DNA of 64,000 nt from a virus. The stretch covers positions 1 to 64,000 of the IMG/VR virus record IMGVR_UViG_3300021083_000196. One strand, given 5' to 3'. Below the pieces are notes generated by a model that was not told the origin of the DNA, did not search any database, and was given only the letters and a program-made list of their open reading frames with translations. A program made the position numbers and the translations under genes. Shown here piece by piece: positions 62,650 to 62,926 of the stretch; positions within the stretch are counted from its first letter, which is position 1, and each line of letters begins with the position of its first letter.

Positions 62650-62784
62650 AGTGAGGGAACAAGCACCGAAAGTAACGTATGCGCTCTACCACTAAGCTAC
62701 AACAACCATAAATGGGTTGCTGACCGGATTCGAACCGATGCCTCATCCTCCAAATGGAAGTAACTCTCGATTACACCACTCACC
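62650..62784 (-). ncRNA. Y-RNA-like element 3 with permuted tRNA mimic
   Basis: Outer stem GGTGAG/CTCACT, 5' strand TGGTGTA, inner stem ATCGAGAG/CTTTCGGT (8 bp), 3' strand GCTTGTTCC. The interior contains T arm ATCGG-TTCGAAT-CCGGT, acceptor stem AGCAACC/GGTTGTT closed by CATTTAT, then TA and D arm GCTT-AGTGGTA-GAGC: a tRNA in circularly permuted order. Confidence 0.78.
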
Positions 62785-62793
62785 TTATCAAGC

Positions 62794-62926
62794 AACAGGG
62801 GAATAAGCGGAAAGACGTTTTTTACGTGCTCTACCAATTGAGCTACCCACCCCGAAGGGCAGGGATGGACTCGAACCACCAACCCCGTCATTACAAATGA
62901 AGAACTTCTTTCCTACGCCACCTGTT
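62794..62926 (-). ncRNA. Y-RNA-like element 2 with permuted tRNA mimic
   Basis: Outer stem AACAGG/CCTGTT, 5' strand TGGCGTA, inner stem GGAAAG/CTTTCC, 3' strand GCTTATTCC. The interior contains T arm GGTGG-TTCGAGT-CCATC, acceptor stem CCTGCCC/GGGTGGG closed by a TTCG tetraloop, then TA and D arm GCTC-AATTGGTA-GAGC. No CCA end and no anticodon arm, so it cannot be charged. Confidence 0.8.

Follow-up and report, generated by a model that had tools for sequence, protein, structure and literature searches.

Circularly permuted tRNA genes, in which the 3' half precedes the 5' half, occur in some algae and archaea. Chen and others (2014) are reported to have found bacterial and phage Y RNAs in the vicinity of Ro60. 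The closest described RNAs are those of the YrlA class (Rfam RF02553; Salmonella YrlA, PDB 6CU1), and PMC11472068 gives a circularly permuted superposition of the Y RNA in PDB 6CU1 on tRNA; the permuted order is thus already known from this class and is not in itself new. DusA and TruB are described as modifying YrlA, and PNPase as binding to the tRNA-like domain of YrlA (PMC8394870). A TROVE protein is also mentioned for jumbo phages (PMC7824862), and Ro60 for a Vibrio phage (PMC7765460).

Here, we analysed a stretch of 64,000 nucleotides (the window), which is part of a virus record of 67,376 bases (IMGVR_UViG_3300021083_000196), by comparison with 175 Ro60 loci (L002-L176), some of which are duplicates of one phage.

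Four tandem Y RNA-like units precede a Ro60 gene

The window encodes a Ro60/TROVE protein, the closest relatives of which, among phage records, are held by Brevundimonas, Xanthomonas and Caulobacter phages. Directly upstream of this gene, and on the same strand, lie four tandem Y RNA-like units, i.e. the plain unit Y1, the permuted units Y2 and Y3, and Y4 with a tRNA-like head in normal order (Table 1). All four units have RTGGYG at the start and a motif ending in RTTCCY at the close. Y1 contains the 5' motif ATGGCGTTG, TTACTTC and the 3' motif CGCTTATTCC, and folds with an MFE of -20.4 kcal/mol (z -3.38). In scans of the 1.5 kb upstream with the Y-unit motifs, 347 units were detected in sense orientation vs 22 in antisense orientation and 20 in shuffled sequences, with seven units in Caulobacter phage CcrColossus and eight in CcrPW. 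An array of this kind is also present in Brevundimonas phage Kikimora. The array itself gave short matches only in blastn against phage records. A scan for Sigma-70 promoters found none (chance expectation 1.5), and neither an RNA ligase nor RtcB was detected near the array among the 34 ORFs scanned, which cover part of the record.

Several other features were observed in the window. An HNH endonuclease ORF (60779-61237) overlaps the 3' end of the Ro60 ORF, a second ORF of the HNH_3 type is found at 56512-57072, and a GapR-like DNA-binding protein is encoded at 63252-63614 (Pfam E 3e-29).

Table 1. Features of the Ro60 locus and its RNA array (window coordinates)
Feature	Coordinates	Strand	Evidence
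Y1, plain Y RNA-like hairpin without tRNA module	62938..63004	(-)	Fold, motifs
Y2, Y RNA-like with permuted tRNA module	62794..62926	(-)	R1, Rfam YrlA, fold, motifs
Y2 anticodon-arm-like hairpin CTTCA-TTTGTAA-TGACG, anticodon TGT, 4/5 pairs	62886..62902	(-)	R1 alignment
Y2 T arm, TTCG-capped acceptor-like stem, TA, D arm	62828..62880	(-)	Descriptor, R1
Y3, Y RNA-like with permuted tRNA module	62651..62783	(-)	R1, Rfam YrlA, fold, motifs
Y3 anticodon-arm-like hairpin CTTCC-ATTTGGA-GGATG, anticodon TTG, 4/5 pairs	62744..62760	(-)	R1 alignment
Y3 T arm, CATTTAT-capped acceptor-like stem, TA, D arm	62683..62739	(-)	Descriptor, R1
Y4, Y RNA-like with normal-order tRNA-like head	62541..62640	(-)	ARAGORN, Rfam tRNA, fold, motifs
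Ro60/TROVE protein gene, 438 aa	61206..62522	(-)	Pfam TROVE, E 1.1e-11

Y2 and Y3 contain permuted and capped tRNA modules

A first-pass annotation of this DNA had described two circularly permuted tRNA mimics with closed acceptor stems. Both were recovered, in that place, on the minus strand and with that arm order, by a permuted-order descriptor and by R1, a covariance model that was built from 48 related modules (alignment A2) excluding the window. In both units, the order is T arm, 3' acceptor strand, cap, 5' acceptor strand, TA and D arm. In Y2, the T arm GGTGG-TTCGAGT-CCATC (62880-62864) is followed by the acceptor-like strands CCTGCCC (62863-62857) and GGGTGGG (62852-62846), which are joined by the loop TTCG, and then by TA and the D arm GCTC-AATTGGTA-GAGC (62843-62828). 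In Y3, the T arm ATCGG-TTCGAAT-CCGGT (62739-62723) is followed by the acceptor-like strands CAGCAACC and GGTTGTTG (the latter at 62707-62700), joined by the loop CATTTAT, and then by TA and the D arm GCTT-AGTGGTA-GAGC (62697-62683). The ends of both RNAs pair in the MFE folds into a basal stem (AACAGG/CCTGTT in Y2, GTGAG/CTCAC in Y3), and both carry Y motifs common to the other units (GTGGCGTAG and CGCTTATTCC in Y2, GTGGTGTAA and TGCTTGTTCC in Y3).

On the minus strand of the window, the descriptor matched Y2 and Y3 and nothing else, with scores of 13.4 and 14.95 vs 5.35 and 8.35 for two low matches on the plus strand, the lower of which is inside the tRNA cluster. R1 scored Y2 with 72.2 bits (E 4.1e-16) and Y3 with 54.6 bits (E 8.5e-12), compared to at most 33.6 bits for tandems of real tRNAs in the window. 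The fold z-scores are -2.24 for Y2 and -1.06 for Y3, as 30/200 shuffles fold equally well as Y3. Neither RNA has a CCA end, and both score below the cut-off of 29 bits with the Rfam tRNA model RF00005 (Y2 21.6 bits, Y3 19.6 bits). By contrast, CCA is encoded in all 19 tRNAs that ARAGORN calls in the window, in a cluster at 44976-48356; the proposal that the capped acceptor strands leave Y2 and Y3 unable to carry CCA was thus borne out. We conclude that the permuted, capped modules of Y2 and Y3 are real.

Y2 and Y3 are variants of the YrlA type

Y2 and Y3 share with YrlA the Ro60 neighbour, the basal stem of paired ends, and the T arm, capped acceptor-like stem and D arm in that order, in agreement with the earlier assignment to YrlA-class tRNA mimics adjoining a Ro60 gene. 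The permuted, capped design, which had been treated as special to these two elements, is that of YrlA. The Rfam search suggested by the first-pass annotation gave a mixed outcome: RF02553 matched Y2 from end to end with 39.6 bits (E 3.7e-7) and Y3 in part with 20.4 bits (E 0.13), but both scores are below the gathering score of 69. Similarly, among 16 phage and virus loci, 0/18 YrlA rows reached this score. Y2 and Y3 are therefore filed as a variant and not as members of the family as now modelled. The two designs differ in the segment that leads from the Y stem to the T arm, where the Rfam consensus has about 7 nt and no anticodon arm, whereas Y2, probably Y3, and 82/155 modules in all have an anticodon-type arm and a variable loop.

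Related modules recur and covary across Ro60 loci

Over the 175 Ro60 loci, the descriptor gave 182 sense matches vs 1 antisense and 1 shuffled match; a few of the sense matches are tandems of real tRNAs, some of them far from Ro60. At least one module was found in 122/175 loci and at least two in 49/175, so that the presence of two versions at one locus is not the exception that had been supposed. In A2, 96.7% of 1007 cells are paired, the covariation score is 0.665 vs 0.187 for shuffles, and all seven acceptor pairs have changes on both sides; because the 48 sequences were picked for having an anticodon arm, the percentage of pairing in that arm is biased.

The R1 alignment drew on the window together with 59/95 viral and phage loci and 65/80 genome loci, mostly loci with earlier matches and with duplicates of one phage left out. 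From 172 R1 matches, we dropped 10 over CCA-ended tRNAs, 6 beyond 1.6 kb and 1 duplicate, leaving 155 modules, of which 79 are from the viral set (window included) and 76 from genomes. Many are closed by short caps such as TTCG or GCAA. Adjacency to Ro60 holds for the window and for loci that were gathered by Ro60. The architecture recurs in 60 viral-set sources (window included) and 61 genome loci, which supports the earlier view that Y2 and Y3 are not broken tRNAs.

ARAGORN made 36 calls within 700 bp upstream of Ro60 in the relatives, and 23 of these overlap permuted modules; thus, it often miscalls such RNAs. In public phage records, the annotated tRNA-Ser of Kikimora (L002:2293-2367), tRNA-Thr of 10KY502B (L003:2331-2398) and tRNA-Gln of CcrColossus (L005:1673-1740) overlap R1 matches of 85.6, 87.8 and 75.2 bits, respectively, i.e. 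Y RNAs are recorded as tRNAs in these three phages. Among other RNAs in the locus set, a permuted tmRNA (Rfam 57.7 bits, gathering 47) is present near the Ro60 locus of Brevundimonas phage Kikimora (L002:5868-6213), and L016:6-253 is a group I intron (Rfam 85.9 bits).

Y2 has an anticodon-type arm

The first-pass annotation had the ends of the RNA leaving where the anticodon arm would be. However, this position holds a hairpin with a 7-nt U33 loop in Y2 and, probably, also in Y3; together with a short variable loop, this hairpin separates the Y stem from the T arm. On sequence and predicted fold, the arm is clear in Y2 (UGU), in which the 7-nt loop is at 62897-62891 and the arm is followed by the variable loop GGGTT and the MFE fold has the same helix register. 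It is ambiguous in Y3, in which the MFE fold favours a competing register (CTTCC/GGAGG, 4-nt loop AUUU). Since the arm is found 5' of the T arm, the Y-stem strands connect to the point at which the D arm and the anticodon arm would otherwise meet; the Y stem would therefore join a permuted tRNA that keeps its anticodon arm and variable loop at the 26/27 junction.

Among 150 non-redundant modules that the first scan yielded, the stretch immediately ahead of the T arm frequently shows 5 pairs, a 7-nt loop and a 5-nt variable loop (e.g. TTCGA-CTTGTAA-TCGAG-AGGTC). Among 88 modules selected by the loop alone (U33, purine 37), at least 4 stem pairs were present in 55, compared to a mean of 26.7 and a maximum of 39 in 2000 permutations of the 3' strands, and 5 pairs were present in 31 (permuted mean 8.4, maximum 17); in other registers, fewer modules had at least 4 pairs. 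A complete arm was called in 82/155 modules with Y2 and Y3 counted (44/79 in the viral set, 38/76 in genomes), and a callable arm was absent in 73/155. With U33 being part of the selection, the 82 arms include no stop anticodon and A34 in 4. U36A37A38 and G36G37, which may be determinants for anticodon-loop enzymes, occur in 40/82 and 16/82 arms vs 31/124 and 16/124 CCA-bearing tRNAs of the same sequences, respectively (Fisher p 5.6e-4 for U36A37A38; relatedness is ignored in all of these counts); Y2 has U36A37A38 and Y3 has G36G37A38.

Two further comparisons were uninformative. ARAGORN called 122/136 de-permuted modules vs 109/136 with the upstream arm shuffled, and so did not discriminate. 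Moreover, the anticodons differ in 6/6 loci with two callable arms, but before filtering module pairs in general share an anticodon in only ~5% of cases, and the 6/6 therefore say nothing on diversity within a locus. In the open-access literature that was searched, we found no report of an anticodon arm in such Y RNAs.

Y4 has a tRNA-like head in normal order

Y4 (fold z -2.63) consists of a D-like TTC-ATTGGTT-GAA with a D-loop-like GG segment, the hairpin CAGCT-TTAAAAA-AGCTG in the anticodon position and the T arm GCCG-TTCAAAT-CGGC; the acceptor stem is replaced by the Y stem. ARAGORN calls it tRNA-Phe (aaa), and it scores 29.1 bits with the Rfam tRNA model (gathering 29). By eye, units resembling Y4 are present in eight loci (L004, L005, L006, L018, L023, L053, L066 and L077). 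The class is based on hand comparison with these loci and a weak consensus fold; we regard it as a lead and not as a demonstrated family. A strict descriptor for normal-order units caught mostly real tRNAs and permuted arms, and was rejected. At L078:2864-2962, also upstream of Ro60, a Y-type stem encloses a normal-order, tRNA-Met-like structure that is called by ARAGORN and lacks CCA.

A possible role for the array

We favour, with a probability of roughly 0.55, a phage Ro60 operon in which Y RNAs come first; the tRNA-like heads of these RNAs, held on Ro60, would dock a host protein that binds tRNA, of which PNPase is the simplest candidate. Sequence comparison supports the four-unit array, the linkage to Ro60, and an architecture that is conserved and covaries; by analogy with the known class, the basal stem would bind Ro60 and the head would mimic tRNA. 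In the proposed mechanism, the operon would be led by the four tandem Y RNAs, with Y2 and Y3 as putative YrlA-type RNAs that combine a basal stem for Ro60 with a permuted tRNA whose acceptor stem is capped. The basal stem of the RNAs would bind the phage Ro60, host tRNA enzymes would modify the tRNA-like head, and the head would dock on the host protein as in RYPER; Ro60 and the RNA could thereby redirect or gate the docked enzyme during infection. Most likely, Y2 and Y3 would act as tethers or decoys on Ro60, with their tRNA-like heads offered to host enzymes that bind tRNA. Among possible partners, PNPase is the conservative choice, at slightly better than even odds. RYPER (Rsr, Y RNA and PNPase; PMC8394870) likewise combines Ro60 and a Y RNA with a tRNA-like effector module, whereas here the Ro60 is phage-encoded, there are four RNAs in one array and PNPase would be a candidate partner.

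A wider proposal, which we put forward tentatively and consider unlikely, is that phages and bacteria carry Ro60-bound complete tRNAs, including the anticodon arm, permuted at 26/27 and with a capped acceptor, and that arrays of these, sometimes with a normal-order sister like Y4, are uncharged decoys or docking heads tuned to readers of the anticodon loop.

It is also possible, although on balance improbable, that the Ro60-held tRNA imitations soak up anticodon nucleases of the host, or other defences that attack tRNA, in which case the anticodon arm would be retained as bait. The plausible anticodons of the 82 arms, with the selected-for U33, few A34 and no stops, are consistent with such decoys, as is the suggestion that YrlA might competitively inhibit an anticodon nuclease (PMC7790460). 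Moreover, phage tRNAs are described as countering tRNA-cutting defences (PMC10264068, PMC11555353); these are likewise tRNA-shaped RNAs from a phage genome, whereas Y2 and Y3 are unable to be charged or to decode and are joined to a Ro60-type stem. However, half of the bacterial-genome modules have the same arms, which are thus not specific to phages, fragments of Salmonella YrlA are described as undetected under the action of an SOS anticodon nuclease (PMC7790460), and no such nuclease is known for the host.

Doubtful, too, is that the RNAs are docking sites for anticodon-loop modifying enzymes (t6A37 or m1G37) and D/T-loop enzymes. The action of DusA and TruB on YrlA (PMC8394870) and the loop letters of Y2, Y3 and the arms in general agree with this, but the enrichment of these letters is modest and may come from shared descent.

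That processing of Y2 and Y3 would yield functional tRNAs, as from permuted tRNA genes, is in our view very improbable. Y2 has a complete permuted arm set, and CCA is found at the offset of the tRNA 3' end in 8/155 modules vs 1 to 6 at neighbouring offsets, which is a weak lead. However, neither Y2 nor Y3 has NCCA at the expected offset, short caps close many of the modules, and the ends pair as a Y stem with motifs common to other Y units; Y2 and Y3 share with the algal and archaeal genes a 3' half ahead of the 5' half, but differ from them by the breakpoint at 26/27, the capped acceptor, the Y stem and the absence of any sign of processing. Finally, that tRNA genes, whether ordinary or decayed, or an artefact of assembly were misread is barely credible: ARAGORN places a tRNA-Thr over Y2 (62854-62928) and a tRNA-Phe over Y4, but the stretch over Y2 falls short of the tRNA cut-off and CCA is absent, so that the result that the first-pass annotation named as speaking against its reading, i.e. 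a tRNA finder identifying ordinary tRNAs, was not obtained, and, moreover, R1 and the YrlA model outscore the tRNA model, the architecture recurs in many sources, and most ARAGORN calls upstream of Ro60 fall on permuted modules.

Implications

The kind of RNA described here is known; what may be new, if it is not in the primary Y RNA papers, is the anticodon arm and the mixed array. At its cut-off, the Rfam model misses RNAs of the Y2/Y3 type, and some carry a tRNA label from tRNA finders in public phage records; the class is thus under-counted and mislabelled. Should the anticodon arm also form in vivo, the tRNA surface of Ro60 RNPs would be much more complete than in the public YrlA model, and anticodon-reading enzymes and nucleases would therefore become directly testable partners.
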